Virus record (IMG/VR): IMGVR_UViG_3300032163_000830
Coordinates: 1-33,616 of that record
Reading direction: 5' to 3' (one strand)
Source of the DNA: a virus
DNA: 33,616 bases
Part shown: positions 15,433 through 32,341 of the stretch, piece after piece
Layout: each line of letters begins with the position of its first letter
Numbering within the stretch: the stretch's first letter is position 1
Notes under the pieces: model-generated
Seen by the model: the letters and a program-made list of their open reading frames with translations, nothing else
Database searches by the model: none
What the model was told of the DNA's origin: nothing
Translations under genes and position numbers: made by a program

Positions 15433-15434
15433 TT

Positions 15435-16277
15435 ATGAAAACTATTAATTTGAACAACAAGCAGGTAGAAACTTTTATAGAGCCTATTAGTAATAAATAT
15501 ATGGGTTTTGCTGGCATTATAAAAATAAATAGTAATGATTCGGTATTTGTCGATACGAGAGATGGTAAGGGATATGATAGGGTAATTGAAAGTATGTCCA
15601 AAATGATAACTTATTTATCAAATAAGTTTAGATTTAATGGTTTTGCAAAAGATGATGTCAAGCAACATATTGTAATGCTTATACTTGATGGAATTCCTAA
15701 ATTCAATCCAAATTTAGATGTTAAATTATCTACTTTTTTACAAATAAGAGTTGGCCGAAGACTAATTAATGAAGTTAGAGATAATAGTAGATATTTCAGA
15801 AACGCTACTTTCTTGAATTTAAACAGATATAGGGTTAATTGTAAGTGTGGCAATAACTTCGCGCTTTCTATTTGCGAAGATCAAGATATAGATAGTGAAG
15901 AATGCCCAAATTGTAATACTAAAATAATAAATTCAAAAAAATATAATATTAGTCATAATGAAATATTATTTAATGACAATATTTACAATAAAAATAATGA
16001 TCCAGTCCATGATAATAGTTTAGATAATATTATAGATTCTAATATATTTGGTGAAGAAAAGTCGCCTTTAGAAGATGATATTATTTTTATGAATGATTTA
16101 CAAGATTGTATTACAAATGAGGGGCCGGAAGTAATTAAAATGATGAGTTTAATATGTCTTTATGATTATTCTATCTCTGATGCTGCTAAAGAAGCCGGCA
16201 TTTCCTATACTCACGCAGCTAATTTATTAAAAAATATGCGTAATAATAAAAAGATTCAAAAATTGATGGATAAATAA
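15435..16277 (+). CDS. Sigma-70-like factor with inserted zinc ribbon
   Basis: 280 aa from ATG 15435, just after the nuclease stop; an upstream TTG lies inside that gene. Residues about 48-120 look like sigma region 2: DDVKQHIVMLILDGIPKFN, then VKLSTFLQIRVGRRLINEVR, matching the FNP...KFSTFL...IR pattern. The C-terminal 45 residues (YSISDAAKEAGISYTHAANL) look like a region 4 helix-turn-helix. Between them lies a Cys cluster, C136-x-C138 and C157-x2-C160, with the look of a zinc ribbon. It probably binds host RNA polymerase and directs phage transcription. The insertion is not a usual sigma feature. Confidence 0.72.
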   Translation: MKTINLNNKQVETFIEPISNKYMGFAGIIKINSNDSVFVDTRDGKGYDRVIESMSKMITYLSNKFRFNGFAKDDVKQHIVMLILDGIPKFNPNLDVKLSTFLQIRVGRRLINEVRDNSRYFRNATFLNLNRYRVNCKCGNNFALSICEDQDIDSEECPNCNTKIINSKKYNISHNEILFNDNIYNKNNDPVHDNSLDNIIDSNIFGEEKSPLEDDIIFMNDLQDCITNEGPEVIKMMSLICLYDYSISDAAKEAGISYTHAANLLKNMRNNKKIQKLMDK

Positions 16278-16860: not shown

Positions 16861-18129
16861 ATGGAAGATTTAATAAAGATTGAAGAAGTAAGTGATATAA
16901 AGAAGAAAATATTAATAATAGTTTCCCCAGATAATGTCAATAAAAAGTTTGATGATTTTTTCAAAAATATCAAAAAAGATGTTCATATAAATGGATTTCG
17001 CAAAGGTAAAGTTCCGGTAAATGTCCTTAAAAAGTATTTTGATGATAGAGCAAAAGATACTGTTTCTCAAATATTATTAGAAGAATATTATTCAAAGGCT
17101 ATAAGGGATAACAATATAAATGTTGTTGGTTCCCCTATTTTGGATAATGAATCTACTGGTGTATTTAGCAAAGATAATTCATACTCTGTTAATTTTTTAG
17201 TAGAAATTTTGCCTAATTTAAATTTAGAAAACTATGATAAAATTAATTTAAATATAGAAACAACTAACTTAACAATAGATATAGAGGCAAAGATACTGTC
17301 ATATAGAGAACAATTTGCTGAAAGAAAACAAGTTTCTGATAGGAGCGCTCAACTTGGAGATGCTGTTGTTATAGATTTTACAGGATTTATAAACAATATT
17401 CCATTCGAAGGCGGGCATTCTGACGGACATTCTATAAACAAATTGGGTAATGAAAATCTTATAATAGGATTTGAAGATCAAATAGTTGGTATGAAGATAG
17501 AAGAATCTAAACGAATTAAAATTAAATTTCCAGATGATTACGGTGCCAAAGAAATTGCCGGAAAGGAAGCCGAATTTGAAATTAAATTGCATACTATAAT
17601 AGAAAGTAAATTAGCCGATGTAAATGATGATTTGGCTTTGATGGTTGGATTCAAAACAGTTGATGAATTAAAAACAAAAATTAAAGCAGATGTTGAGGGT
17701 GAAATCGAAAATAGAAACAGAGTATCATTAGAAAGACAAATAGTAGAAAAGATTAAAGAAACTAATACTATTAAAATGCCAGAATCATTATTAAAAGATG
17801 AACAAGTTGCTATTTTGAAAAAAGCTGGCGTAAAGGATAAAATAAATGATGTTATGCTAAATAGTGTTAAGGGTATAGCCCAATTTAATATAGAAAGAAA
17901 ATTAATATTTGATGCTATATATGAAAAAGAAATTACTCTGGAAATAGCACCAGATGAGTTAGATAAAACATTAGATGAAAATGCGGTTAAATCAAATATG
18001 TCAAAAGATGATTTCATAAGTATGTTGTATAATTCAAAGCAAATGGATTCGTTTATGGATATTTTGAAAGCCAAAAAAGTGGTTGATTTTATAATAAATT
18101 GTTCAAAAAACAATAAGGATAAGGTTTAA
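16861..18129 (+). CDS. tig: Trigger factor (ribosome-associated chaperone)
   Basis: 422 aa, close to the 432 aa of E. coli Tig, with all three domains. The N-terminal domain carries the ribosome-docking signature GFRKGKVP at 45-52, which binds L23 at the exit tunnel. A FKBP-like PPIase domain follows at about 150-240 (GDAVVIDFTGFINN, GFEDQIVGM, FPDDYGAKEIAGKEAEFEI). The C-terminal helical chaperone arms extend from about 250. It would hold nascent chains as they leave the ribosome. A phage-encoded full-length trigger factor is very unusual. Start ATG 16861 has GAGGTAGGTA upstream. The intact signature suggests it still docks on host ribosomes. Confidence 0.93.
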   Translation: MEDLIKIEEVSDIKKKILIIVSPDNVNKKFDDFFKNIKKDVHINGFRKGKVPVNVLKKYFDDRAKDTVSQILLEEYYSKAIRDNNINVVGSPILDNESTGVFSKDNSYSVNFLVEILPNLNLENYDKINLNIETTNLTIDIEAKILSYREQFAERKQVSDRSAQLGDAVVIDFTGFINNIPFEGGHSDGHSINKLGNENLIIGFEDQIVGMKIEESKRIKIKFPDDYGAKEIAGKEAEFEIKLHTIIESKLADVNDDLALMVGFKTVDELKTKIKADVEGEIENRNRVSLERQIVEKIKETNTIKMPESLLKDEQVAILKKAGVKDKINDVMLNSVKGIAQFNIERKLIFDAIYEKEITLEIAPDELDKTLDENAVKSNMSKDDFISMLYNSKQMDSFMDILKAKKVVDFIINCSKNNKDKV

Positions 18130-18130
18130 A

Positions 18131-18352
18131 ATGAGTGAAGGTAAAGTAAGCACCCAGTCAGTTGGTGGGTTTAAAGTAGTAAATTATTCTGTCAAAAAGG
18201 GAAAGGAAGATGAAAGGGTTAGGTTAGTATTGGAAGCAAGTGTTGATGAAATAAGTGCTGGCGAATGTGACATGGGTGAAGTAATGAAAGCCCTATTAGA
18301 TCACGCAACGGGAGATACGGCAATAAGTTTATCACTCTTTGTAAATAAGTAA
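18131..18352 (+). CDS. Hypothetical protein, 73 aa
   Basis: The ATG at 18131 follows the trigger factor stop by one base. A beta-like N-terminal half (GGFKVVNYSVKKGKEDERVR, LVLEASVDE) is followed by a helix (DMGEVMKALLDHATGD) and a final strand (ISLSLFVNK). It could be a small alpha/beta protein. No family is recognised. Confidence 0.65.
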   Translation: MSEGKVSTQSVGGFKVVNYSVKKGKEDERVRLVLEASVDEISAGECDMGEVMKALLDHATGDTAISLSLFVNK

Positions 18353-18685
18353 ATGAAATTCAATGATATAATTAAGATTACTCAAAATGAATGCGTAGCC
18401 TGTATATCATTGATGTATGAATTACCTTGTCAAATTGATGAAGATATATATGAATATTTAAAGGATTTTGGAAGACTATTATATTCTTTTAAGTCTATAC
18501 GGTTATTACATATAAGATCTTCTGATAGTTTTGAAATAGAAGGTAAATTAGGTAATAATAAAATAAAATTTGTTATACCAAAAAAGTTTCAAAATCAAAA
18601 AATAAGTGAAGACAAAAAACTATATTTTGAAACTTTACTCTCGAAATGGATTACTAAAAAATTAAATATGGAAGTGGGTTTGTGA
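18353..18685 (+). CDS. Hypothetical protein, 110 aa
   Basis: Starts immediately after the previous stop (TAA at 18350-18352, ATG 18353). Contains Cys at NECVACISLMYELPC but no complete metal motif, then a beta-like part (FEIEGKLGNNKIKFVIPKKF) and a C-terminal helix. The TGA overlaps the next gene's ATG. Function unknown. Confidence 0.65.
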   Translation: MKFNDIIKITQNECVACISLMYELPCQIDEDIYEYLKDFGRLLYSFKSIRLLHIRSSDSFEIEGKLGNNKIKFVIPKKFQNQKISEDKKLYFETLLSKWITKKLNMEVGL

Positions 18686-19584
18686 TGTATTTGTATGTAG
18701 GTGTTTTTCCGAATAATAAAGTATATGTTGGCATTACCGTTAATTTTAATAAACGTAGGGTTATGCATAAAAGTAGAGCCAAAAATGGATATGATACTTA
18801 TTTGTATAATGCTATAAGAAAATATGGATTTGATAATATTACTTGGAATACGGCAGATGGCTATACTGATTGGGATGACTTATGTAGGGCGGAAATTGAA
18901 GAAATAAAAAGATATGACTCTACCGACCGTAATTTTGGATATAATATTAGTGCTGGTGGAGATGGTTATGTTGGATTTAAACATACTGATGAATGGAAAG
19001 AAATGATGTCTAAAAGAATGAGTGGCGAGAACAGCCCATCCTGGGGTAGAAAATTAACATTAGAAGAGAAACAGTATTTGTCAAAAATTAATACAGGCGA
19101 AAATAATCCACGATTTGGCCAAGAAAAATCAGAAAAAGAAAAAATGGCCATATCAAGTGGGCTTTTAAAATATTATATAGAAAATGATGGAAAATTTAAA
19201 GATAAAAATCATAAGAAGAGTAGTAAAGATTTAATATCAAAAGCTAATAGTGGAGAAAATAATGGTATGTTTGGGAAAAAAGCTTGGAATAACGGAATTA
19301 AAAATTCAGAGTGGTCTGAAAAAATGAAGGGAGAGCGAAACCCAATGTATAAGATTGGAGAAAATCACCCTATGTTTGGTAAGAAACACTCTAAACAGAC
19401 TATAAAAGAAATGAGCGGAAGCAATAATTCGCAAGCCAAATTGATAGAAATGGATGTATTAGAGATAAGAGAGAAGTATAAATCTAAAAAATATAAACAA
19501 AAGGATTTGGCTAAGGAATACAAAATATCTATAACAAACATTAGTAATATAGTTAATAATAAAATATGGAAGAAAAATGAATAG
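18685..19584 (+). CDS. GIY-YIG homing endonuclease with NUMOD3 repeats
   Basis: 299 aa. The GIY-YIG core is at the N terminus: MYLYVGVFPNNKVYVGIT, NFNKRRVMHKSRA (catalytic Arg), and an acidic RAEIEEIKRYD helix with the catalytic Glu. Then come at least four NUMOD3-type repeats (GENSPSWGRKL, GENNPRFGQEK, GENNGMFGKKA, GENHPMFGKKH) and a terminal helix-turn-helix (KDLAKEYKISITNISNIV), all DNA-binding modules of Seg/I-TevI-like enzymes. It lies directly upstream of, and overlaps by 8 bases, the intein-containing polymerase gene, so the polymerase locus has been colonised twice. ATG 18685 is used (GTGATG junction). Confidence 0.88.
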   Translation: MYLYVGVFPNNKVYVGITVNFNKRRVMHKSRAKNGYDTYLYNAIRKYGFDNITWNTADGYTDWDDLCRAEIEEIKRYDSTDRNFGYNISAGGDGYVGFKHTDEWKEMMSKRMSGENSPSWGRKLTLEEKQYLSKINTGENNPRFGQEKSEKEKMAISSGLLKYYIENDGKFKDKNHKKSSKDLISKANSGENNGMFGKKAWNNGIKNSEWSEKMKGERNPMYKIGENHPMFGKKHSKQTIKEMSGSNNSQAKLIEMDVLEIREKYKSKKYKQKDLAKEYKISITNISNIVNNKIWKKNE

Positions 19585-22500
19585 ATTTATACATCTACAT
19601 TGTCATTCGAGCATTGGAAGTATGTTAGATGCAATGACTAATATAGATGAGATGTTTAAACGTGCAAAAGAATTGGGACAGCCTGGCATGGCCATAACCG
19701 ATCATGGTTGCATGGCCGGAATATTTGACGCGAGAAAGGCCTCTAAAAAATATGGGATAAAATTTATACCCGGAATAGAGGCATATTTTGTTGATGATGT
19801 GACTGATAAAGAACAAAAAAGACGACACATAGTTTTGTTGGCCAAAAATGAAAAGGGATACAGAAATTTGCTCTCTTTAAATTATGAAGGATATTTAAAT
19901 TTTCAATATGTAGCTGTAATTAATAAAGTGTTTCCGAAAATAGATTGGAATTTATTGGAAAAATATCATGAAGGTATTATATGCTTAACTGCTTGTGGCA
20001 GTGGTTTGTTATCTCGTCAAATGTTTGTACATAATGAAGATGGCGAATGGTTGTTGGATACTTGTCATACTAATCTATATTCAGCCGCTAAAAAATTAAA
20101 AAATATATTTGGCGATGATTTATATTTAGAAGTTCAACCACATAATTTAAAAATTATAGATCGTAATAGAAGAACTGGCGAAATTAAATTGTCCAAAACT
20201 GGTGAAGAAATTGTCATAATAGATCAGGATCATATAAATAGAAAATTAATTGAATTAGGTAAATCACTTAATATTAATTTGGTAGCAACAGCAGATATAC
20301 ATTATCTAAATAAAGAAAATGCCAAAGATCACGATATGCTTATGGCTATATCTTCAAAAGCTCCGTTAAGCGATAAGACCCGCCATAGATATGAAGTAGA
20401 AGAATTTTATATGAAGGACAGACAAACTATCTTTAATCACTTTAAGGATAAGTTTGGAGAAACTTTTGCCAATGAAGTATGCGATAATACTATAAAGATA
20501 TTTGAAAAATGTATTGAGTCAGATTATTTAGACGTAAAGGAACCAAGATTTCCGAAGTTTGATGTAGATAATGTTCCTGATTTAGAACTATTCAAAGATT
20601 GGCAGGCAAAGCAAACCAATAATTCAATTCCATCAGATCACTCTTATATGAGATTCAAATGCGTATCGGAATTTAAAAAGTTATACGGACATTTAAAGGG
20701 TAAAGAAAAAGAGAAATACATAAAGCGTATGATGGATGAGATTAAGGTATTAGAAATGCATAATTTTTGTTCGTATATGCTTATTGTGTCCGACTTTATA
20801 GAATACGCTAAAAGTAAAAATATAATGGTTGGTCCGGGTAGAGGGTGTTTGATAGGTGAAACAAAAGTATTGACTGACAAGGGAATTAAAGAATTAAAAA
20901 ATATAGTTAGCGGAGATTTTGTATATTCTCATACAGGACAATTAAAAGAAGTATTAAATACTTTTAAGTATGAAATAAAAGAAGAGTTATTAAAAATACA
21001 AACTAATTGGTCTTATGAGGATATAATTCTGACAAAAGATCACAAATTATATGCCGAAAAAAGTCTAACAACAAGTAAGTTTAAGGATAGACTTAATTCT
21101 GGGCTTCGAACAGACAAATGCAAAAGATGGGTTAATTTTCAAAATAATCCTCAGTGGTTAAGTGCACAAGATTTGAGTATCCAAGATGGTATATTTATGC
21201 CGTTCTTAAAAAGAAATATTGAAAAACAAATTTCATTAGATTTGGTCGAATTTATTGATGAAGATATGTTCTATGATAAAGATTATATTTATAAGGAGAT
21301 ACCATTAGATAATATCTATTCTTATAGAAATATATCAAAAAAATTAAATATAAGTAGATCAACTATTATCAAGGCAAAACGCGGGAATAAAATAAATCAA
21401 AGTAACTCAGACAAAATAATAAATTACCTAAATAGTATTGGTACTAACTTAAGCGATTGGCAAAATAACAAAAATATCTATACAAAAAAACATAATAGAT
21501 TTATATGTTTTGATAATGATTTTGCTTATATTTTGGGCAGATGGATTGGCGACGGTTGGAAAAAAGAAAACAAAGACAGTAATTATATAGGTATAGCGTT
21601 TAATAGCGATGATACAATTGGTGTCGAAAAGATAAAATCATATTTTAATGGCATTGGTTTTGAGTGTAAATTAAATGTGTCAAAGACTAAAAAATTGATA
21701 CAGTTGTATGTTTATGGCAAAGTTTTGCCAAGAATATTTTCAAAATTCATATCGGATTATAAAAATTCATCTGGCAGCAAACATTTACCTGTGGCCTTTA
21801 GAAATATGGAGACTGGACTTTTAAAATCTATGCTAAACGGCTTGATAGATAGTGATGGATCCCTAGATACTAACGGTAATAGAACAAACATTGATACTAC
21901 AAGTGAAAGATTGGCCTGTGAAGTAAAAGAAGCACTACTGTATTTAAAAATACCTTCATCAATTTTTGTTAGAGATGAATTTTTGAGAGGTAAGTATCTT
22001 TGTAGGAAATCATATAAAATTAGATTTAATGAAAAAAATAAAAATAATATATTCGATAATGGATATTTTGTAAATATAAAAAATATAGAAGTGATAAATA
22101 ATATAAAATATGTTTATGATATTCAAGTTAAAGATGACACATCATATCTGACCCTTAACTATGCCGTTCACAATAGTGTCGGAGGTTCTTTAGTTGGTAA
22201 TTTGCTTGGAATTCATACTGTTGACCCAATACAATATGGCTTATTGTTCGAAAGATTTCATAACAAAGAAAAGAAAGCGTTTCCAGACATTGATACTGAT
22301 TTTAGTTCGGATGGTAGAGACGCTGTGGAGAAATACATAGTTGAGAAATATGGCAAAAATAAAGTTGCTCATGTCTCCAATTTAAGCAGAATGACGCCAA
22401 AAGTTATTATCAAAGATATTGCCAGATCTTTGGAACTCGGCGGTGGCAAAAGTGAAGCGTTCAAAATAGCAAATAAAATAACTGATACTATTCCATCTGA

Positions 22501-24337
22501 TGTTCAAACGATAGACGATGCACTAAAAGTATCAAAAGAATTTGTTGAATTTTGTCAAAAATATCCGGAATTAGAGAAATATGGCCGCAGATTAGTTGGG
22601 TTAGAACGAGCTTACGCAACTCATGCCGCCGGAATAGTTATAAGCGATATTGATTTATCTACTTATGTTCCGCTACGATTAGATAAGGATGGGGTTGTGT
22701 CAGTTCAATATGAAAAGAATAGATGCGAAGAAATGGGTCTCATTAAGATGGACTTGCTGGGGCTGGAACATCTTAGAATTATAGAGCATACCATAATTAA
22801 TTCCAGACTATTAGGAATGAAGTGCCCAGATCCAAAAGATATAGATTTAAACGATAAAAAAGTTTGGGATGAAATAGCAAAGGGCAGAACTATGTGCGTA
22901 TTTCAGATGGGTTCGACTCATATGAAGGCTCTATGTAAACAAATACGCCCACAAAATATTGAAGATTTAAGCCTGGTAAATGCCTTGGGGAGACCTTCTG
23001 CTGGGCAAAAGTCAAAAGATGGAACGCCAGCACCACGAGATACCTATATATTAAGACGAGATGGAAAAGAGCCTGTTTCTTACAAATATGAATGTTTACG
23101 GCCAGTATTGTCAGAAACATTAGGTATATGTGTATATGAAGAACAATTGGCAAAATTAGCAAATGCAGTAGCTGGTTGGGATTTAAATAAGGCTGATGGT
23201 CTCCGCAAATTAACAAAACTTAAGGAAAAGGGCAGAGAATTTACCACAAAACTTAAAGAAGATTTTATAGTTGATGGAATGAAGCACAACAATTTAAAGC
23301 GCGAAGAAGTCGATGAAATATGGGAAAAAATTATAGAACCATTTTCAGGATATGGCTTTAATAAGGCACATGGAATATTTTACAGCATAAACGGATATCA
23401 TACGGCTTATTATAAATATTATTTTCCAGCAGCTTTTATGGCCGCTGTTCTTCAATCAGAGGCAGAGAAAAACGCAGCCGTAAGAGACAGTAATATTAGG
23501 GCATATAAAAAAGAAGCTGAAAGACTGGGACTAACTATACTTCAGCCCGATTTAAATAAGAGCGGGCAATCATTTAGTGTTGTTGATAAAAACATCATTA
23601 TAACTGGCTTGAATGCCATAAAAGGTATAGGAAATTCGGCTGTCAATAATATATTAGAATCAAAATTGAAAGGTTCATTTAAAAGTTTCGCTGATTTCTT
23701 ATATAGAACTAATTCAAGAGTTGTTAGAAAAGATACTATTCAAGCATTAGCTATGTCAGGATGCTTTGATAGTTTAAAAATAAATAGAAAAGCAGCGTTT
23801 ATTTATTACCAAGATATTAGAGTGAAAGCCAATAAATATGGCACAGAAAAATCAAAAGAGGGTATAGATGAACTTAATAGACTTGATGGATTTATTTTTG
23901 ATTTAGATAAACTTGCAGAAGAATGGACTTTAAAAGAAAAACTTGATGGCGAAAAAGAAACACTTGGGGAATACATATCTGGAAATATAAATGATGTATA
24001 TAATGGATTTTTCACCGGCAAGGGAGTTACACCTCTTACTAAAATAAAGAATATGAGCGCAGGAACCCTTATAAGAACAGAATCAATAGTATCTGACATA
24101 AAAGAAATGAAATTAAAATCAGGCAAAAATAAGGGAAAAGTTTATGTTAAATGTGATTTGACAGATTTGAATAACGATATTATTCAATTAACAGTATGGC
24201 CAGAGCAATGGAGTTATTACAAAAATATATTGGATATAGGAAGTCCAATAAGAGCTGTGTGTAAAATCAATAGTTATAATGGAGCCAATAGTTTGGTGTT
24301 GGAAAGAATAGAAAATGGAGTAAATGATGCAATGTGA
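19577..24337 (+). CDS. dnaE: DNA polymerase III alpha subunit (DnaE), intein-containing precursor
   Basis: 1586-residue precursor; removing the intein (424-866) leaves 1143 residues, the usual DnaE size. The N-terminal PHP domain (FIHLHCHSS, MAITDHGCMAG, IPGIEAYF, TADIHYL) keeps an active-looking metal site, so it may proofread. Palm motifs: GPGRG (419-423) joined after splicing to SVGGSL, FPDIDTDF (D904, D906) and GLIKMDLLGL (third Asp). Fingers and helix-hairpin-helix parts follow, and a C-terminal OB fold (IVSDIKEMKLKSGKNKGK, LTVWPEQW). It replicates the phage genome. A bacterial C-family replicase is rare in phages, which mostly use A- or B-family enzymes. No clamp or loader is visible nearby. 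Confidence 0.95.
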   Translation: MNRFIHLHCHSSIGSMLDAMTNIDEMFKRAKELGQPGMAITDHGCMAGIFDARKASKKYGIKFIPGIEAYFVDDVTDKEQKRRHIVLLAKNEKGYRNLLSLNYEGYLNFQYVAVINKVFPKIDWNLLEKYHEGIICLTACGSGLLSRQMFVHNEDGEWLLDTCHTNLYSAAKKLKNIFGDDLYLEVQPHNLKIIDRNRRTGEIKLSKTGEEIVIIDQDHINRKLIELGKSLNINLVATADIHYLNKENAKDHDMLMAISSKAPLSDKTRHRYEVEEFYMKDRQTIFNHFKDKFGETFANEVCDNTIKIFEKCIESDYLDVKEPRFPKFDVDNVPDLELFKDWQAKQTNNSIPSDHSYMRFKCVSEFKKLYGHLKGKEKEKYIKRMMDEIKVLEMHNFCSYMLIVSDFIEYAKSKNIMVGPGRGCLIGETKVLTDKGIKELKNIVSGDFVYSHTGQLKEVLNTFKYEIKEELLKIQTNWSYEDIILTKDHKLYAEKSLTTSKFKDRLNSGLRTDKCKRWVNFQNNPQWLSAQDLSIQDGIFMPFLKRNIEKQISLDLVEFIDEDMFYDKDYIYKEIPLDNIYSYRNISKKLNISRSTIIKAKRGNKINQSNSDKIINYLNSIGTNLSDWQNNKNIYTKKHNRFICFDNDFAYILGRWIGDGWKKENKDSNYIGIAFNSDDTIGVEKIKSYFNGIGFECKLNVSKTKKLIQLYVYGKVLPRIFSKFISDYKNSSGSKHLPVAFRNMETGLLKSMLNGLIDSDGSLDTNGNRTNIDTTSERLACEVKEALLYLKIPSSIFVRDEFLRGKYLCRKSYKIRFNEKNKNNIFDNGYFVNIKNIEVINNIKYVYDIQVKDDTSYLTLNYAVHNSVGGSLVGNLLGIHTVDPIQYGLLFERFHNKEKKAFPDIDTDFSSDGRDAVEKYIVEKYGKNKVAHVSNLSRMTPKVIIKDIARSLELGGGKSEAFKIANKITDTIPSDVQTIDDALKVSKEFVEFCQKYPELEKYGRRLVGLERAYATHAAGIVISDIDLSTYVPLRLDKDGVVSVQYEKNRCEEMGLIKMDLLGLEHLRIIEHTIINSRLLGMKCPDPKDIDLNDKKVWDEIAKGRTMCVFQMGSTHMKALCKQIRPQNIEDLSLVNALGRPSAGQKSKDGTPAPRDTYILRRDGKEPVSYKYECLRPVLSETLGICVYEEQLAKLANAVAGWDLNKADGLRKLTKLKEKGREFTTKLKEDFIVDGMKHNNLKREEVDEIWEKIIEPFSGYGFNKAHGIFYSINGYHTAYYKYYFPAAFMAAVLQSEAEKNAAVRDSNIRAYKKEAERLGLTILQPDLNKSGQSFSVVDKNIIITGLNAIKGIGNSAVNNILESKLKGSFKSFADFLYRTNSRVVRKDTIQALAMSGCFDSLKINRKAAFIYYQDIRVKANKYGTEKSKEGIDELNRLDGFIFDLDKLAEEWTLKEKLDGEKETLGEYISGNINDVYNGFFTGKGVTPLTKIKNMSAGTLIRTESIVSDIKEMKLKSGKNKGKVYVKCDLTDLNNDIIQLTVWPEQWSYYKNILDIGSPIRAVCKINSYNGANSLVLERIENGVNDAM
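20846..22174 (+). mobile_element. Intein with LAGLIDADG endonuclease inside dnaE (443 aa)
   Basis: The intein starts at C424 (CLIGETKVLTDKGI, block A) and ends YAVHN (H865, N866), with Ser867 as the +1 nucleophile. Block B is TKDH (T486-H489). Two LAGLIDADG motifs, YILGRWIGDG (D659) and LNGLIDSDG (D760), form a DOD endonuclease. Residues between 500 and 640 may add a DNA-recognition region. Insertion is within the GPGRG/S polymerase motif, 37 residues before the catalytic Asp, so unspliced protein should be inactive. All splicing residues are present, so it is expected to be active. Confidence 0.93.
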
Positions 24338-24869
24338 TAATTGTGGTGTCAATATAAACGCTGAATTTCAATTTGCTATATCGAGCAATAACTGTCCTGG
24401 TTGTGGCAAAAATATAATGAAGGCAGAGAAATTAATTAACTTTCTTAATTTAAAAACTCTAATTTCTAATAATTTTATAGATATAGATAGTGAAAGATTA
24501 GTAAATCTTATTATAGCAAATTTTGAATTAAAGCAGCTATTCAAAGAAGAGCGTATTGAAAAAATAAATAAAGATGTTGAAGTAAAAAAACAAGGCGATC
24601 AAATTGAGGTCAAAGAGGCGGAAAGCATGGAAGATCTCAAAAAAAGTGATGAACTACACAAATTAAGACAAATGGCTGATGCAAAAGAAACATTAAAAAA
24701 GCTTAGAGATGAGGCGTATGAGGGTGCTTTAAGGGGCGCTTGGGGTATGGAAGATGAAACTACTAATGATCCAGCGGTAGTTGTGGATATGGCTAATAAA
24801 ATAGAAAGAGCCCAGAGTCAAGAGAATATATTGACAGGATCAAAGGGTGCTTTTACGAGAAGTCAATGA
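24327..24869 (+). CDS. Zinc-ribbon protein, 180 aa
   Basis: The N terminus is a zinc ribbon: CDNCGVN and NNCPGCGKN, spaced about 20 residues. Then come a helical region (ERLVNLIIANFELKQLFKEE) and a charged coiled-coil-like stretch ending in LTGSKGAFTRSQ. ATG 24327 lies six bases after GGAG and is preferred to the ATG at 24324, three bases away. It overlaps the end of dnaE, hinting at a replication or transcription partner, but no family is recognised. Confidence 0.72.
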   Translation: MQCDNCGVNINAEFQFAISSNNCPGCGKNIMKAEKLINFLNLKTLISNNFIDIDSERLVNLIIANFELKQLFKEERIEKINKDVEVKKQGDQIEVKEAESMEDLKKSDELHKLRQMADAKETLKKLRDEAYEGALRGAWGMEDETTNDPAVVVDMANKIERAQSQENILTGSKGAFTRSQ

Positions 24870-25135
24870 TAAGAGCCATAGCATATAGTAAAGTGGAGAT
24901 GACAGATCAAGAATATGCTTACTATAAAGAATTAGTAAGTCAATTTACTGACGATAAAGATAAGGGCGAAGAATTATTTAAAGGATTATTTGAATCCGAT
25001 GATGATGGATTTATAACATTAATAAGCCCCAAACAAACAATTCCGTGGGCTATTTTGTTTTTTATTCAACAATTAATGTTAAATCAAAGACTTAGAATAA
25101 TAGATGATTTAAGAAAGGAGTTAAAAAATAAATGA
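24866..25135 (+). CDS. Hypothetical protein, 89 aa
   Basis: The ATG at 24866 overlaps the previous TGA. Acidic first half (YYKELVSQFTDDKDKGEELF), then a hydrophobic patch (PWAILFFIQQLMLNQRLRII) too amphipathic to be a sure membrane segment. There is no motif. It overlaps the following gene (ATGA). Confidence 0.65.
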   Translation: MIRAIAYSKVEMTDQEYAYYKELVSQFTDDKDKGEELFKGLFESDDDGFITLISPKQTIPWAILFFIQQLMLNQRLRIIDDLRKELKNK

Positions 25136-25668
25136 GTGATAAAAACTTGACTGTTAGGGATTTATTGAATGGCAGAGATGGTAATTTTAATCCGTTAGAC
25201 ATAGATACTTCTGAAATAAAGGAGTTATCAGAAGCTATGCCTAAAGATGGCAATATAGATATCAATAATGCGGAGGTTTTAGCTACAAAATATTTAAGAG
25301 GAGCGGATATTTGTTCAGAATTATTAGCAATAGCCACCTCTTATGTATCTAAAGCTGATACTGAAAAGAAAAAAGCCTACAGTTATGCCGCTTTAATTAA
25401 GGCTTCCACACAAAATATTAAAACAGATAAGAGCAGATCTTGGTTTGCGGAGATGGACGAGGACTATATTGGTGCTTGTAATAAGTATTCAGAAGCATTA
25501 GCTTTTGCTAAATGGATAAGTAGTAAATATGATAGCTTTAATAAGATGCATTATTTGTGCAAACATATACTGAAAAGGGCATATCCGCATGAACAAGCAT
25601 CTTCTTGGAATGGAACGTTGGATGAGGAAAGTCATCAACCTAAACCGAAAACGGATGAAAGTTGGTAA
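25132..25668 (+). CDS. Hypothetical protein, 178 aa
   Basis: ATG 25132, with AAGGAG 10 bases upstream. The protein has an acidic N terminus, a helical middle (ATSYVSKADTEKKKAYSYAA; KYSEALAFAKWISSKYDSF) and a polar tail. Its position before the ssDNA-binding protein promoter and the YSYAAL-KA-N helix pattern recall small phage recombination or single-strand-associated proteins, but I cannot assign it. It is the last gene before the promoter at 25675. Confidence 0.68.
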   Translation: MSDKNLTVRDLLNGRDGNFNPLDIDTSEIKELSEAMPKDGNIDINNAEVLATKYLRGADICSELLAIATSYVSKADTEKKKAYSYAALIKASTQNIKTDKSRSWFAEMDEDYIGACNKYSEALAFAKWISSKYDSFNKMHYLCKHILKRAYPHEQASSWNGTLDEESHQPKPKTDESW

Positions 25669-25674
25669 TTTTAC

Positions 25675-25702
25675 TTGACATTTTGTGGTAGTAGTATATA
25701 AT
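25675..25702 (+). promoter_or_regulatory. Consensus sigma70-type promoter
   Basis: TTGACA at 25675-25680 and TATAAT at 25697-25702, both perfect, with a 16-base spacer. Transcription would start near 25709. It is the clearest promoter in the window and sits in a true gap upstream of the ssDNA-binding protein gene. It should be read by the host housekeeping RNA polymerase, so it may serve high early expression. Confidence 0.8.
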
Positions 25703-25725
25703 AATATATACCCGATTGCATGTAC

Positions 25726-25738
25726 GTGTTTTAAACAC
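25726..25738. repeat. 13-bp palindrome in the 5' leader (operator candidate)
   Basis: GTGTTTTAAACAC is a perfect inverted repeat with a central T, about 20-30 bases after the predicted start site of the promoter at 25675. It could bind a dimeric repressor, or a homodimer of the ssDNA-binding protein's regulator, or form a weak RNA hairpin. In an AT-rich genome chance is a real alternative. Confidence 0.35.
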
Positions 25739-25779
25739 TTAAAAGCTATAGGGTAATTTAAACAATGGAGAATTTAAAA

Positions 25780-26385
25780 ATGGATAAAGTAGTGGGCAAA
25801 CTGGAATCGTGGGCAGATGCAGACATTGGACGTAGTAATTTTATGAGACTTGAGGATGGTAGTAATCAGGTAAGATGTATTACCAGTCCGTGGCAATTTT
25901 ACATACATTGGAGTTCTGATGCTACAAATCAAAACCGTAAGGTCAAATGTGCATTAAAAGACTGCCCTTTGTGCCAGCAAGGTGAAAAGGCACAGGTTAG
26001 GTGGTATGTTGGCGTTCTTAATAGAAAGGACAGTAAGCCAGCAATAGTTGAGATGGGACCACAAATATTTAATCAGGTTTTGGCCTTATCAAAGAATATT
26101 AAATGGGGAGATCCTCGTGGATTTGATTTGGATATTCAAAAAAATCCAAAGAAAACACAACCATTATATACGGTTGTTCCAGAACCAAAAGAGAAATTAA
26201 CTTCTGAAGAAATAGCTATATGTAAGGAGTTTGTTGAAAAAATTGATCTATCAAAAATGGTAGAAACTCCTACTCCAGAAAGTGTTAGAGAGCGTCTGGG
26301 ATTGGCATCAATAAAGAAAAGTTCTGTTGTGGTAGATGATGTTTCTACATCTGATACAGAAGACTTCAATTTTGATAATGTTTAA
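25780..26385 (+). CDS. Predicted ssDNA-binding protein (gp32-like) with zinc site and acidic tail
   Basis: 201 aa. ATG 25780 has GGAG (25767-25770) nine bases upstream; the ATG at 25765 contains that box and is less likely. Conserved-looking LEDGSNQVRCITSPWQFYIH, a likely zinc site H43-x13-C57-x4-C62-x2-C65, and an OB-like strand region (QVRWYVGVLNRKDSKPAIVE) match the layout of gp32-type proteins. The C terminus is acidic (SDTEDFNFDNV), like SSB tails that recruit partner proteins. It would coat single-stranded DNA for replication and RecA recombination. A strong promoter and a downstream terminator suit a protein needed in bulk. Confidence 0.7.
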   Translation: MDKVVGKLESWADADIGRSNFMRLEDGSNQVRCITSPWQFYIHWSSDATNQNRKVKCALKDCPLCQQGEKAQVRWYVGVLNRKDSKPAIVEMGPQIFNQVLALSKNIKWGDPRGFDLDIQKNPKKTQPLYTVVPEPKEKLTSEEIAICKEFVEKIDLSKMVETPTPESVRERLGLASIKKSSVVVDDVSTSDTEDFNFDNV

Positions 26386-26400
26386 TTAAATTTAGCGGTG

Positions 26401-26440
26401 GGAGGCGGTTTTGGTAAAACGAAATCGCTTCCTCTTTTTT
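26401..26440 (+). terminator. Intrinsic terminator after the ssDNA-binding protein gene
   Basis: GGAGGCG (26401-26407) pairs with CGCTTCC (26426-26432) through one G-U pair. An inner GTTTT/AAAAC stem (26408-26412 with 26416-26420) stacks below it, and CTCTTTTTT follows (26434-26440). It ends exactly at the ATG of ruvC, so it may attenuate rather than block transcription into ruvC-dnaJ-recA. Confidence 0.7.
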
Positions 26441-27016
26441 ATGACAAAAATTTTAGCATTAGATGTATCTTCTGTGTCTTCTGGCTATGCTGTCATAGAA
26501 AATGGAGATTTGGTTAAAGATGCCTATGGTTTAATTCAGCCTGATAAAAAGCTTCCGTATGGTGCCAGATTAGTATACTTTCAAAATGAAATTAGAAGAA
26601 TAATAAAACTATATAATCCAGAAATAATAGCAATAGAAGATATATTTAAGGGTAGAAATATGCTTACCTTTAAATCATTGTCTATGTTTCGTGGAGTAGC
26701 TTTCAAAACTATTTTCGAAGAGATTAATAAAGATCCGGTTAATATTATGGCGGTGGAAGCCAGATCAACTTTGGGGCTGGATCCTTCCAAAGATAAGGCC
26801 TTTAAACAGGCAATTAAAAAATTTAAGCTTAAAGGCTTTAAATTTGAAAAAGACAATGATGTAGTCGACGCCATTATATTGGGTGTAGCTATTCATACTT
26901 TATTAAAACAAGGAATAAATGAACAATCCCTACACAGTTCTCGGCGTAAAAAAAGACGCGGATCAAAAGGAAATAAAAAGCGCCTTCCGAAAATTGGCCC
27001 TCGAATTTCATCCTGA
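26441..27016 (+). CDS. ruvC: RuvC-like Holliday junction resolvase
   Basis: 191 aa from ATG 26441. RNase H-fold motifs: [18 protein letters not shown] (D8), [14 protein letters not shown] (E66) and [16 protein letters not shown] (acidic pair), the RuvC order. It resolves four-way junctions from RecA recombination before packaging. TTG 26411 has GGAGG five bases upstream and would add ten residues (MVKRNRFLFF), but ATG 26441 matches the family start. The C-terminal tail (about residues 162-191) is highly basic ([17 protein letters not shown]) and is encoded within the first 98 bases of dnaJ in another frame. Confidence 0.88.
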
Positions 27017-27926
27017 TAAAAATCCCGGAAATAAAGAGGCAGAGGAGCGATTTAAAGCAATAACCGCCGCTTATGAAGTGTTAAGCGATGCAGAAAAACG
27101 AAATAATCTTGATAAGTATGGGGATGAAAAAGGCGCATCATATCAACAAAATGTAAATATAAATGATATATTTGGTTTTGATCTTGATCAGATATTTGGT
27201 ATGGGGCATAAGAAAAGAAATATCGGGCAAGATATACACAAAAGTATAGATATAGATTTTATGGAAGCCGTATTAGGTTGTTCTAAAAATATTACTATAG
27301 AAAGACCAGAATTTTGTGCTGCTTGTAATGGAAGTGGTGCCAAAGACAATACGAGTATAATAAATTGTAGTTCTTGTAATGGAAACGGCAAAGTAGGCTA
27401 TAGACAAGGTGGAATGCAGATATTACAAACTTGTGGGTTATGTTATGGAACTGGCAAAAAAATATTAGAGAAGTGCCCACATTGTTTTGGTGTTGGAAAT
27501 AAAATTAGAAAAGAAAGTATTAAAGTTACTATACCTACTGGTGTTGATGATGGAAATATTTTAAGATTATTAGGAAAAGGTGCTCCAAACGATATAGGAG
27601 ATAATTATGGTAATTTGTATTTATCAATAGGCATTAGAACACATAATAAATTTAAGAGAATAGGTTTGAATATTCAAGCAGAAGAGGAAGTAAATTATAT
27701 TGATGCTATTTTAGGAACCAAAATTGATATCAATACTATTTATGGTAGAGAGAAAATAATAATACCGCCAGGAACGCAACCTAATGCTGCTATAAAAATA
27801 GATGGCAAAGGTATAGTTAAGAGTAAATTTAAAGGCGACCATCTTATATTTGTAAAGATAAAATTGCCTAAAAAGGTTTCGGATGAAGAGAAAGAATTAT
27901 TAAATAAATTAAAAGTGTATCTATAA
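26919..27926 (+). CDS. dnaJ: DnaJ (Hsp40 co-chaperone)
   Basis: 335 aa. The J domain is at 1-70 with HPD at 31-33. The Gly/Phe linker is very short ([16 protein letters not shown]). Four zinc-binding CxxCxGxG repeats follow ([32 protein letters not shown]), then two C-terminal beta-sandwich domains ([16 protein letters not shown]..., [18 protein letters not shown]). This is a full type I DnaJ, somewhat shorter than the 376 aa of E. coli. It stimulates DnaK ATPase and delivers substrates. No dnaK is in this window, so it probably drives host DnaK. The ATG lies inside ruvC (98-base overlap). Confidence 0.94.
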
Positions 27927-27940
27927 AGTAGGGGTAAGAT

Positions 27941-29035
27941 ATGGCGCAAAAATCAATGGCAGAAATATGGAAGCAGTTAGAGAAGCAACATGGCGAAGAG
28001 GGGCTGTTTGTAGGAAGTAATGATAATTACTCTTATTCTGATTCAATATCAACGGGTAGTATTGCTCTTGATGATGCTTTGGGTATTTGGGGTATTCCGA
28101 AGGGACATGTGGTTCAATATTCTGGTTTCCCATCTTCTGGGAAAACTCTATTAAGCTACACCACAATAGCTGAATGGCAGAAAAAAGATACAAAAAATTG
28201 GGCCATGTTTATAGATGCAGAATATTCTTATGATCAACAATGGGCCAAATCATTGGGTGTAGATACTGATAGATTATATGTATATAAAGAAAATAGTGGC
28301 AAAGAAATATTCGATCGATTAGTTGGCGTTCAAAATAAAGGTAGCACTGGTAAAGCCAAAAAGGGCGTTTTAGATTTGGAAATTGAAATGAGTGGCACCG
28401 GTTTGGGTGTTATAGTGTTGGACAGCATTGCGGCCATGCAACCTCCAGTGGAGGAGGCAAGTTTGGTAGACGGTCAAGACATGGCGGCGATGGCGAGATT
28501 TTTACCCAAAGCTTTAAGACGGCTTACACCAATGCTAAGCGCTACGGGGATAGTATTTATAGCTATAAATCAGATCAGAATGAAACCCGGAGTTATGTAC
28601 GGAAATCCAGAGGAAAGCCCAGGAGGAACTGCTTTAAAACACGCATGCTCTCAAATGATCAATTTGGCTAAAATGTCTGGAAAAGACTCAAAAATAGAGG
28701 AAGGGAAAGAGCAAATTGGACATCATGTAAGAGCCAAAGTTGATAAAAACAAGAAAAGTGCCCCTTTTCGAACGGCAGAGTTTGCCATAGAATATTTAAG
28801 GGGAATAGTCAATAGAAACGAAGAAGTTTTGGAATTGGGTGTAAGATATGGCGTTATATTGAGACCAAATAACAGAACTTATGAGTTAGATGATGTAAAG
28901 TATAATGGTAAAGATACTTTGATAGAGGCTCTAAAAGATTTATCACTTCAAGAATCTGTTATAACAAGATCAAAAGAGGCAAGAGCTAATAATGTTAAGG
29001 TATCTGCGTTGATTGAAGAAGAGAATGAGGAATAA
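27941..29035 (+). CDS. recA: RecA-like recombinase
   Basis: 364 aa. It has an SISTGSIALDDALG N-terminal core start and Walker A GFPSSGKT (62-69). Then come WAMFIDAEYSYD, Walker B GVIVLDSIAAM, PKALRRLTPMLSATGIVFIAINQIR (L2 region) and GGTALKHACSQMI. It catalyses strand exchange in homologous recombination and replication-fork repair. It is nearer to bacterial/phage RecA than to T4 UvsX in overall look. The acidic C terminus (SALIEEENEE) is typical of RecA. It works with the SSB (25780), Mre11/Rad50 and RuvC. Start ATG 27941 has GGGG upstream. Confidence 0.93.
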   Translation: MAQKSMAEIWKQLEKQHGEEGLFVGSNDNYSYSDSISTGSIALDDALGIWGIPKGHVVQYSGFPSSGKTLLSYTTIAEWQKKDTKNWAMFIDAEYSYDQQWAKSLGVDTDRLYVYKENSGKEIFDRLVGVQNKGSTGKAKKGVLDLEIEMSGTGLGVIVLDSIAAMQPPVEEASLVDGQDMAAMARFLPKALRRLTPMLSATGIVFIAINQIRMKPGVMYGNPEESPGGTALKHACSQMINLAKMSGKDSKIEEGKEQIGHHVRAKVDKNKKSAPFRTAEFAIEYLRGIVNRNEEVLELGVRYGVILRPNNRTYELDDVKYNGKDTLIEALKDLSLQESVITRSKEARANNVKVSALIEEENEE

Positions 29036-30183
29036 TGCCTAAAAAACATACTTTTGAATATGTAAAAAATAAAATAAAAAGTATGGGTGGAATTCTCATA
29101 AGTAAGAGTTATTTAAATAATACTCAAAAATTAAAAATAATATGCGATAAGAAACACAAAATACAGATGTGTTTTGCTGAAATACAAGATGGAAGTTGGT
29201 GTAAGAAATGTTCAGACATAGCTAAGAGTAAAAGATACGCTTTGCCATATAATTTTGTCAAGCAAGAAATAGAGAAGCACGGTGGAACTCTTATATCTAA
29301 GGAATATATTAATGATTCAACCAGCTTGGAGATTATGTGTGCTGAAAAACACAATTTTAAAACAACTTATGATACTATTAGATCTGGATCATGGTGTGCT
29401 GTTTGTGCAAATATAAACAGAAGTAAAAAATTATCGTATACCTATGATTTTGTTAAAAATACAATAGAACAAAAAGGTGGAATATTACGCTCTAAAGAAT
29501 ATTCCGGTTGTAAGAAAAAAATATCTATACTATGTGGAGTTGGACATATATTTGATATGACTTTTGATAGTATTATGACTGGCTATTGGTGTCGTAAATG
29601 TGCCTCTATTAAAAATGGAAAAAAGATAGCGCATACATATGAGTTTATTAAGGATATTGTAGAAAAACACGGTGGGATCTTGATAACTAAAGAATATACA
29701 AATGCTCGCACTACTTTAAAAATAATATGCGATAAGGGACACGCGTTTGAAACTAATTATGCCAGAATTGGAATAAATGGAAGTTGGTGTAGTTATTGCC
29801 CGGCAAGCAAAGCACAAACTAAATTAAAAATTATATTAGATGAACTATTGAAAACAGAAATACTTCAAAATTATAAAAAATTTGATTGGCTTAAAAACAC
29901 AAAGACCGGTTTGAAATTAGAAATTGACTTGTGGGTGCCGGAATTAAAATTAGCGATAGAATATGATGGTGAACAACATTTTACTCCAGTATGTTTTGGT
30001 GGAATAACCAAGAAAGAAGCATCTAAAAATCTGGAACAAACTAAATACTTGGATCATATCAAAAATAATTTAATAAAAAATAATTCAAGTGATATTAAGT
30101 ATTTTGTTAGATTTAATTATAAAGAAGATATAACCGAAGAATATATTAGAGAAAAATTAAAAAAATATAGAATTATGTATTAA
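29035..30183 (+). CDS. Free-standing homing endonuclease: four zinc-finger repeats plus EDxHD nuclease
   Basis: 382 aa paralogue of the gene at 2498. Four repeats of about 62 residues carry the same pattern (GGxLxSKEY, then KIxCxxxH, SWCxxC, SWCAVC, YWCRKC, SWCSYC). The nuclease domain has EID (E296, D298) and IEYDGEQHF (E309, D311, H315) with identical spacing. The C-terminal part shares DIKYFVRFNYK with the other copy. One more finger than its paralogue suggests repeat-number change altering target recognition. It is inserted right after recA (TAATG), a favoured site for such elements. Confidence 0.83.
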   Translation: MPKKHTFEYVKNKIKSMGGILISKSYLNNTQKLKIICDKKHKIQMCFAEIQDGSWCKKCSDIAKSKRYALPYNFVKQEIEKHGGTLISKEYINDSTSLEIMCAEKHNFKTTYDTIRSGSWCAVCANINRSKKLSYTYDFVKNTIEQKGGILRSKEYSGCKKKISILCGVGHIFDMTFDSIMTGYWCRKCASIKNGKKIAHTYEFIKDIVEKHGGILITKEYTNARTTLKIICDKGHAFETNYARIGINGSWCSYCPASKAQTKLKIILDELLKTEILQNYKKFDWLKNTKTGLKLEIDLWVPELKLAIEYDGEQHFTPVCFGGITKKEASKNLEQTKYLDHIKNNLIKNNSSDIKYFVRFNYKEDITEEYIREKLKKYRIMY

Positions 30184-30196
30184 AGAGGAGTAAATT

Positions 30197-30619
30197 ATGT
30201 TAATAGCTTGTAATAATAAAAAATGTATGCAACACAGTGATGCTAAATTAAATACGACATCAATGGAAGTTATATGTGCTGCTTGTAATAATCCCATAAC
30301 TAATATCACGGAATCAATGAAAAGAGCACTTAAAAGTTTTGGACAGACAATAAAGGAAAATGCCAAAAAAGCATTTGTTATGGCCTGTAAGAATTGTAAC
30401 GCCAATAGAGAGGTTGTCATGAGTAATGGTGGAGAAACTGTATGCAAGGTATGCAAAGGTGCTATAAAGGTTCACACAGCAATGAAACAGGCAATAAAGG
30501 AATTTGGTGAAAAAGAAGAGCCAGTGGTAGCAGTAACAACTCTATCTGATACTACCACAGCAGAGTCTCCAGTTAAAGTAAAAAAACCCCGCCAACCTAA
30601 AGCATCTGTTAAGCAATGA
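30197..30619 (+). CDS. Double zinc-ribbon protein, 140 aa
   Basis: Two similar halves: a CNNKKC / CAACNNPI pair, then CKNCNAN / CKVCKGAIK, each followed by an amphipathic helix (ESMKRALKSFGQTIKE; TAMKQAIKEFGEKEE). This looks like an internal duplication of a zinc ribbon plus helix. The C-terminal tail is Pro/Lys-rich (VKVKKPRQPKASVKQ) and probably nucleic-acid binding. It overlaps the Toprim primase gene (ATGATG), so it may act with the primase or as its zinc partner. Function unproven. Confidence 0.7.
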   Translation: MLIACNNKKCMQHSDAKLNTTSMEVICAACNNPITNITESMKRALKSFGQTIKENAKKAFVMACKNCNANREVVMSNGGETVCKVCKGAIKVHTAMKQAIKEFGEKEEPVVAVTTLSDTTTAESPVKVKKPRQPKASVKQ

Positions 30620-31347
30620 TGAGTGACCTATTTTATGATAAATTGGTAGATGTATGTCATAGATTCTTATATGAAGATAAATATATCCTAAATTATATCC
30701 AAAATAGAGGATTATCAGAAGCTACTATTAAAAAGTATAAAATAGGATCTTTTCCTAAAGATTTAAGAAGATTATTCAAGTATATACATCCAGAAGATCT
30801 AAGAAAGAATAATATAGTTTGGAATGCTGATACCAGTCCATTCAAAAAATATCCAGTTGTTATACCAATTAGAGATATTCATGGTAAAGCTATAGCCATA
30901 GGATGTAGAACACTTCTTTCAGATAATGAACGAAAAATATTGGGTATTCCTAAATATAGAAATAGTAGTTATTCAAAAACATCTCATTTGTTCTGTTTGG
31001 AACAATCTATTAATTATATAAGAGAAAGTAATCAAGTATTCGTAGTAGAAGGTTATTTTGATGCTATTTCAGCTCATCAAAGGGATATTAAGAATGTGGT
31101 TGCTGCCTGCGGAACAGCATTCTCTAATAGACAATTAATTACATTATCACGATATACCAATAATATTTGTTTACTTTTTGACAATGATGAGCCTGGAATT
31201 ACAAGTTCTAAAAAGATATTAAGTAAATTAATATATAAAGATGGGCTAAATTTAGAATGCCAATTTACTCCGGCTGAGTATAAAGATTTGGATGAGTTTT
31301 TAGTAAATAATGGGAATTTTGATATTTTCATTAAATCTGATCGATAA
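30616..31347 (+). CDS. Primase Toprim core (DnaG catalytic domain) without zinc domain
   Basis: 243 aa. The N-terminal part (YILNYIQNRGLSEATIKKYK) matches the start of the DnaG RNA polymerase domain (YL-RGLS-E-I-F-IG). Next come PVVIPIRDIHGKAIAIGCRT, then the Toprim motifs VVEGYFDA (E145, D149) and LLFDNDEPG (D189, D191). No CHC2 finger and no DnaB-binding C-terminal domain are present. The missing finger is encoded at 7050. Together the two genes total about 450 residues, equal to DnaG without its helicase-binding end. It would synthesise RNA primers for DnaE. ATG 30616 or 30619 may start it. Confidence 0.87.
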   Translation: MMSDLFYDKLVDVCHRFLYEDKYILNYIQNRGLSEATIKKYKIGSFPKDLRRLFKYIHPEDLRKNNIVWNADTSPFKKYPVVIPIRDIHGKAIAIGCRTLLSDNERKILGIPKYRNSSYSKTSHLFCLEQSINYIRESNQVFVVEGYFDAISAHQRDIKNVVAACGTAFSNRQLITLSRYTNNICLLFDNDEPGITSSKKILSKLIYKDGLNLECQFTPAEYKDLDEFLVNNGNFDIFIKSDR

Positions 31348-31359
31348 TTGGGAGAGATT

Positions 31360-31821
31360 ATGCCTAAACACTTTACTTGTAGTAAGTCTGGCGATTTAGA
31401 TATAGTGCCAAGTAATTTTATTGAAATAACTATAGATCCGAGTTTATTAAATAATTTTGCTAATGAAGATGGTATGAATGCATATTTTAATAGTTATACA
31501 AATTCAGAAGATTTCCAAAAACTTCGATTAGAGTTGGTTAAGGAAGTTTTATTTATAATAGATAATAATTTAACTGAAAGACAAAGACAGGTTATAAAAA
31601 TGACCTATTTAGAAGATAAAACCCAAAATGAAATATCTGATCAGCTCGGCAAACACCAAACTACTATACACAAAATATTACAGGGCAATATAGATTATAA
31701 CAATAACAAAAAACGATATGGTGGAGCTTTAAAGAAAATAAGAAAACTATGCTCTAATAATATGAAGATTAAAGAAATATTACTTAAAATGAGAGAAAAG
31801 AAAGAAGAATACACAGAATAA
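31360..31821 (+). CDS. Sigma region 4-like helix-turn-helix protein, 153 aa
   Basis: ATG 31360 follows GGGAGAG and is preferred over an upstream TTG. The central part (LTERQRQVIKMTYLEDKTQN, EISDQLGKHQTTIHKIL) is a clear sigma-70 region 4-like HTH that binds -35 DNA. It is preceded by an unrecognised 70 residues lacking region 2 and followed by a basic helix. It may be a small sigma factor, anti-sigma or transcription regulator. It lies between the primase core and IF3, perhaps one co-expressed unit. Confidence 0.75.
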   Translation: MPKHFTCSKSGDLDIVPSNFIEITIDPSLLNNFANEDGMNAYFNSYTNSEDFQKLRLELVKEVLFIIDNNLTERQRQVIKMTYLEDKTQNEISDQLGKHQTTIHKILQGNIDYNNNKKRYGGALKKIRKLCSNNMKIKEILLKMREKKEEYTE

Positions 31822-31840
31822 ATGAGGAGATAATTATTTA

Positions 31841-32341
31841 ATGAATGTAACTCTAATTGATGATAAAGGCAATCTTGTAGGGAATTTAAATATAGATGAG
31901 GCCAAAAGAATGGCCAAATCTACTGGAAATGATTTGATATTGGTTAATCCACAAAATAATATATATAAGATGGCCGATCGTGGGAAATTAAAATTTGACC
32001 AAAAACAAAAAGAAAAGAAACAAAAGGCACAACAAAAGATGCAGAAAGTTAAGGAAATTCAAATAGGGCCTCATATAGAGAGGCATGATCTTGATGTTAA
32101 AATCAATCATATTAAGGAATTTCTAAGTAAAGGTCTAAAAACTAAGGTTATAGTGAAATTCAAAAATAGGCAATTAGCCTTCAAAGAAATAGGTATAGAT
32201 AAAATGACCATAGTTATAAATGAAATCATCAATAATAGCTTGGGAAGTATAGATTCGTCTCCCAAATTTGAAGGGCGAGATCTAATCGTGCTTATATTTC
32301 CAAACAAAAACACCATAAATGTGGCAAAAACGACACAGTAA
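31841..32341 (+). CDS. infC: Translation initiation factor IF-3
   Basis: 166 aa, near the 180 of E. coli IF3. The N-terminal domain (VTLIDDKGNLVGNLNIDEAK) is followed by the signature MADRGKLKFDQKQKEKKQK, the lysine-rich linker, and QKVKEIQIGPHIERHDLDVK, the IF3 pattern VKEIKFRP...D...K. The C-terminal domain has RFLEEG-type FLSKGLKTKVIVKFKNRQLA and FEGRDLIVLIFP. IF3 binds the 30S subunit, keeps ribosome subunits apart and checks start codons. Both domains are present. A phage-coded IF3 is rare, mainly reported from huge phages. GGAG is 11 bases from the ATG, rather far. Confidence 0.92.
   Translation: MNVTLIDDKGNLVGNLNIDEAKRMAKSTGNDLILVNPQNNIYKMADRGKLKFDQKQKEKKQKAQQKMQKVKEIQIGPHIERHDLDVKINHIKEFLSKGLKTKVIVKFKNRQLAFKEIGIDKMTIVINEIINNSLGSIDSSPKFEGRDLIVLIFPNKNTINVAKTTQ

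Follow-up and report, generated by a model that had tools for sequence, protein, structure and literature searches.

Why would a virus encode an initiation factor (IF3), a trigger factor (TF) and the co-chaperone DnaJ in one region of its genome? The stretch of DNA that raises this question, hereafter the window, comprises the 33,616 bases of a virus record in IMG/VR that is classed as linear. An earlier note had suggested that the three genes reflect a capture of host protein production and not only of replication. The analysis reported here makes it rather probable that the window belongs to a huge-phage lineage in which a bacterial TF was acquired once, long ago, and became fixed with DnaJ in a replication block, IF3 being present in many members.

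The three genes and their surroundings

All assigned genes of the window lie on the + strand. The gene tig (16861..18129) codes for a three-domain TF of 422 residues, identified by Pfam, by alignment with E. coli TF and by a predicted model matching the structures 2vrh and 1w26. The gene dnaJ (26919..27926) codes for a protein of 335 residues with a J domain and its HPD motif, four CxxCxGxG zinc motifs and a C-terminal domain (Pfam; motifs), and infC (31841..32341) for an IF3 of 166 residues (Pfam; alignment; model). The coordinates and the 15.5-kb span originally given for the trio are correct, and all three proteins are full-length by Pfam. Shine-Dalgarno-like sequences are found 5' of TF, DnaJ and IF3 (AGAGGTAGGTA-ATG, AAGGAATAA-ATG and GAGGAGATAATTATTTA-ATG, respectively).

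The TF domains Trigger_N, FKBP_C and Trigger_C follow one another in this order with 93.7, 53.6 and 53.6 bits (Pfam cut-offs 22.2, 21.1 and 22.7, respectively). Alignment with E. coli TF places the docking motif GFRKGKVP at residues 45-52, and the FKBP-pocket positions F204, Y227 and F239 are kept (F198, Y221 and F233 in E. coli). The AlphaFold model matches E. coli TF 2vrh with a TM score of 0.73 and an E-value of 2.4e-24; searched against the viral structure library BFVD, it gave no match at E 0.001. PHROG 26774 matches the protein and is annotated as unknown function. DnaJ is recognized through the Pfam families DnaJ (94.0 bits), DnaJ_CXXCXGXG (42.4) and DnaJ_C (115.5), and IF3 through IF3_N (47.2) and IF3_C (79.3). 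The AlphaFold model of IF3 matches the bacterial IF3 5lmn (E 2.9e-13), with a helical, lysine-rich linker between its N and C domains.

Besides the trio, the window contains replication, recombination and nucleotide genes. SbcD (8530-9732) and SbcC (9729-11816), both assigned by Pfam and synteny, form the upstream part of a conserved block. They are followed by a Cas4-like PD-(D/E)XK nuclease (14656..15432; Pfam), which is a conserved upstream neighbour of TF, and by a sigma-factor-like protein with region 2 (15411..16277), detected by the PHROG sigma factor family and slightly below the Pfam cut-off for Sigma70_r2. Between TF and DnaJ are conserved a DnaE-type DNA polymerase III alpha subunit with an intein (19577..24337; Pfam, synteny), three small lineage genes (24324, 24866 and 25132, together 24324..25668; tblastn conservation), an SSB-like protein (25765-26385) and, just upstream of DnaJ, RuvC (26411-27016; PHROG/Pfam and synteny for both). 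Downstream of DnaJ are RecA (27941..29035), the catalytic half of DnaG (DNAG_N and Toprim; 30616..31347) and a sigma region 4 protein immediately 5' of IF3 (31348..31821), all three assigned by Pfam. Genes for UDG, dCMP deaminase, FtsK, dNMP kinase and NT5C are also present, and a tRNA search of the 33.6-kb window found none.

The window has several further features. The RuvC and DnaJ frames overlap by 98 bases (26919-27016), an arrangement that is similar in contig G001 and not in G002. The primase is split: the DnaG zinc ribbon is a separate gene (7038-7667; Pfam) 23 kb from the catalytic core, and the two are separate across the lineage. The sigma-like regions 2 and 4 are likewise carried by two genes about 15 kb apart; both have conserved slots in the block of many relatives and could possibly form a two-part sigma factor. 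The DnaE intein occupies residues about 456-866 of the product, and homing-endonuclease-like genes (LAGLIDADG, NUMOD3, HNH) are inserted among the core genes (7664-8533, 18682-19584 and 29035-30183). In the close relative G003, a LAGLIDADG gene is found just 5' of IF3 instead, and DnaJ is separated from RecA by a transposase.

Distribution and synteny in related contigs

Scans of IMG/VR with single TF, IF3 and DnaJ sequences gave no matches, and an alignment-based scan recovered 23 contigs with TF. The patterns of this first TF scan included the docking motif, which partly predetermined both the presence of TF and the conservation of its motif. Because of this bias, IMG/VR was scanned independently of TF with the upstream Cas4-like nuclease (alignment A5), and the best 80 of 348 loci were considered. 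A gap in E-value from 5e-36 to 9e-25 separates 48 of them from the other 32; this split was placed after inspection of the list, and TF presence tracks it exactly. TF is found at most 5 kb downstream of the nuclease, on the same strand, in 48/48 contigs above the gap, and in none of the 32 loci below it among the best 80 of 348, some of which are short. Four or more pairs of these 48 contigs look like near-duplicates, so that the number of distinct phages is somewhat lower.

The lineage contigs are genome fragments of very large, uncultured phages, and those found through the nuclease reach 481 kb. Virion genes are present among them, namely a terminase large subunit in G008 and tail and head-maturation protease proteins in G016 (394 kb); terminases were detected by PHROG, PF03237 being too weak for divergent ones. 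The window itself has no structural gene, and its membership of the huge phages rests on synteny. Mapping the window proteins on the TF contigs gave one conserved order: SbcD, SbcC, Fn3, nuclease, (sigma), TF, DnaE, three small genes, SSB/RuvC, DnaJ, DnaG, sigma. This order persists even where TF identity falls to about 20%; RecA is placed either 5' of SSB or 3' of DnaJ. A very divergent TF (L045, about 20% identity) was also found on a 166-kb viral contig (G023) without the rest of the block; it was excluded from the lineage counts.

In 49/49 contigs where both genes were found, DnaJ follows TF on the same strand at a distance of 7.9-16.6 kb (10.1 kb in the window), and none of the 25 lineage contigs with a length of 100 kb or more lacks it. 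Two of the 48 contigs, G038 and G040, have no PF00226 match despite the expected region being present; the other lineage contigs without DnaJ are short or end too early. IF3 was detected in 17 of the 25 contigs of at least 100 kb, one of which (G026) had been found through IF3, and was undetected in eight. It is on the TF strand in 25/25 and occupies three places relative to TF: at +12 to +17 kb in the clade of the window (whose own value is +15.0 kb), and otherwise either at about -11 to -14 kb or at about -23 to -37 kb. With a DnaJ spacing held in 49/49 contigs and three positions for IF3, TF and DnaJ are the fixed elements and IF3 is a mobile, looser partner. The co-occurrence of infC, tig and dnaJ anticipated for related phages is thus strongly borne out by TF in 48/48, DnaJ in 25/25 and IF3 in 17/25; a random occurrence of single genes, which would have spoken against a coordinated set, is excluded by TF and DnaJ always being on the same strand and near each other.

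As a small control, both DnaJ and IF3 were missing from three contigs outside the lineage. Among 12 deposited large phages, picked mostly by IF3 or DnaJ matches, no full TF was found; IF3 was present in six, all of which also carried DnaJ. This deposited set shows only that the combination of IF3 and DnaJ is not unique to the TF lineage.

Other protein-production genes were found in relatives. GroEL is encoded in G003 (33774-35279, L125), together with a tRNA nucleotidyltransferase, and in G025 (78925-80445, L126). Release-factor genes with an RF-1 domain are present in G016, G034, G050 and G054, which are among the largest contigs (L312 at 106967-107296 of G016; also L311, L309 and L310). A batch scan of G016 also returned a Peptidase_M24 protein (methionine aminopeptidase superfamily), Thg1 and an RNA ligase.

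The origin of TF was addressed with a tree in which 52 TFs of viral records were placed alongside 34 bacterial ones. Of the viral-record proteins, 51/52 group in a single clade that excludes the sampled bacterial TFs (SH 0.972), and the phage TF looks like one ancient acquisition. The remaining one (L033, in G011) groups with bacterial TFs and was treated as contamination. The nearest bacterial TFs are about 25-35% identical and mostly from Bacillota, which may reflect the search pattern. As the genome scan retains the best matches to the window, the bacterial sample is rich in Bacillota. Pairwise dN between phage TFs is far below dS (e.g. 0.053 versus 1.04, many dS values being saturated), and the protein is under purifying selection.

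Possible roles as translation helpers or replisome chaperones

The GFRxG docking motif is kept in the TF of 45/48 nuclease-found contigs, the remaining three having GYR or GSR. The FKBP-pocket motifs (FEGG and the Tyr221 position) are lost in most distant phage TFs. This persistence of the docking loop while the prolyl-isomerase pocket degenerates suggests that the distant proteins act as a ribosome-bound holdase and not as an isomerase. The HPD motif is present in all 21 phage DnaJ sequences examined. The window DnaJ and its five closest relatives have four out of four zinc motifs, and distant members two to four canonical ones, the set being incomplete in several. A search for Hsp70 in 27 contigs found none, and together with the conserved HPD this makes host DnaK the likely partner of the phage DnaJ. 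The IF3 of the window lacks both the N-terminal tail and the PP of the PPVC loop, and another residue takes the place of the Tyr of IMDYGK; its C domain is retained. Its five closest relatives share this pattern, and in distant phage IF3 the same N-domain elements are mostly kept. These losses weaken the claim of standard initiation checking, not the homology to IF3, and one may speculate that the altered N domain changes initiation checking in the window clade.

With TF fixed, DnaJ almost always nearby and IF3 often present, the phages probably supply the protein production of the host with helpers of their own. Judging from the conserved motifs, the phage TF would dock on the exit tunnel of the host 50S subunit through its GFRxG loop and shield nascent phage proteins. 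DnaJ would pass clients to host DnaK, as suggested by the lack of a detected Hsp70 in the 27 contigs, and IF3 would favour or reset initiation at the 30S subunit during takeover. In a far-reaching version, advanced here tentatively and considered doubtful, the lineage would universally re-equip host ribosomes, with TF at the exit tunnel, DnaJ feeding nascent chains to host DnaK and, for the window clade, an altered IF3 working at the 30S subunit; phage-specific co-translational folding would then be deployed together with the replisome. IF3 is neither fixed nor stationary, and the incomplete zinc motifs of several distant DnaJ proteins also count against a role of the trio as translation helpers.

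The location of the genes fits a role at the replisome too. The suggestion that protein production was captured, and not only replication, is supported as to co-occurrence and qualified by the slots of TF and DnaJ, which lie inside the replication/recombination block; because these slots are fixed there, TF and DnaJ may serve the replisome alongside general translation or in place of it. Replication of phage lambda DNA requires host DnaJ, DnaK and GrpE. Taken to its end, this argument would make TF and DnaJ dedicated chaperones of replisome assembly or remodelling, without any general steering of translation, and IF3 a separate and looser acquisition. Their places among nuclease/sigma, DnaE, SSB, RuvC and DnaG and the mobility of IF3 agree with it, but a chaperone working only at the replisome would have no use for the ribosome-docking motif that nearly all lineage TFs retain, and we consider it unlikely.

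The phage TF and DnaJ might also displace or titrate host chaperones as decoys, either blocking a defence or inducing a heat-shock state. A precedent exists in the Rki protein of phage RB43 (PMC3486835), and host DnaJ is reportedly required by a defence protein, according to work cited in the moraphage study (PMC12619734). Loss of domains and catalytic positions is what one would expect of a decoy, yet all three proteins have full domain sets, including the TF arms, and the PPIase positions are kept in the window clade, which leaves this explanation quite improbable. That the trio stems from a chimeric assembly, or from bacterial DNA wrongly binned as viral, a reservation also raised in the earlier note, is hardly credible given that the same arrangement recurs on contigs from many metagenomes, that members carry phage hallmark genes and that the TFs form a separate clade, even if bacterial contamination does explain some of the 'phage' TF records in INPHARED. 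Two such neighbourhoods were read, tig-clpP-clpX (L010) and tig-clpP in an Acinetobacter record, and both matches were rejected as bacterial.

Comparison with known phage and bacterial systems

Some translation genes, IF3 included, and J-proteins or DnaJ are already known in phages. For a phage-encoded TF, no report was found in the open-access literature, an absence that is not proof; a Southern Ocean survey states that TF was undetected (PMC8407431), and TF goes unmentioned in a 2026 review on jumbo phages. Huge phages encode IF1/IF3, ribosomal proteins and release factors, for which a redirection of host translation was proposed (Al-Shayeb et al. 2020, PMC7162821); the main text of that study includes neither TF nor DnaJ, whereas in the present lineage TF belongs to the fixed, syntenic core. 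DnaJ, IF3 and ClpA/X were found in jumbo phages, mainly of group 2.2 (Iyer et al. 2021, PMC7824862), where DnaJ and IF3 are sporadic and TF is unmentioned, in contrast with the fixed and syntenic TF and DnaJ described here.

The moraphages are, like the TF lineage, large aquatic phages with DnaJ (PMC12619734). They have a family B polymerase, some carry a Flavobacteriales DnaK, and TF is unmentioned (PMC12619734). The block of the TF lineage carries DnaE instead, the family B DNA polymerase that defines the moraphages as a core gene is not part of it, and no Hsp70 was found in the 27 contigs searched. Rki of RB43, a J-protein, binds DnaK and stabilizes sigma32 without being a co-chaperone of the generic kind (PMC3486835). 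Both Rki and, as proposed here, the lineage DnaJ are phage J-domain proteins acting through host DnaK; unlike Rki, the lineage DnaJ is full-length with zinc and C-terminal domains.

The phage TF shares with the bacterial protein (E. coli Tig; 1w26, 2vrh) its three domains, GFRxG loop and fold. It differs by its low identity (23% over the structural match), its separate clade, the absence of clpP/clpX neighbours and, in distant phages, a degenerate PPIase pocket. That an entire lineage of huge phages has a ribosome-bound chaperone among its core genes suggests that the growth of such large viruses can be constrained by co-translational folding and not only by initiation or tRNA supply, and the lineage offers a defined setting for asking whether a virus replaces a host factor at the ribosome exit tunnel.
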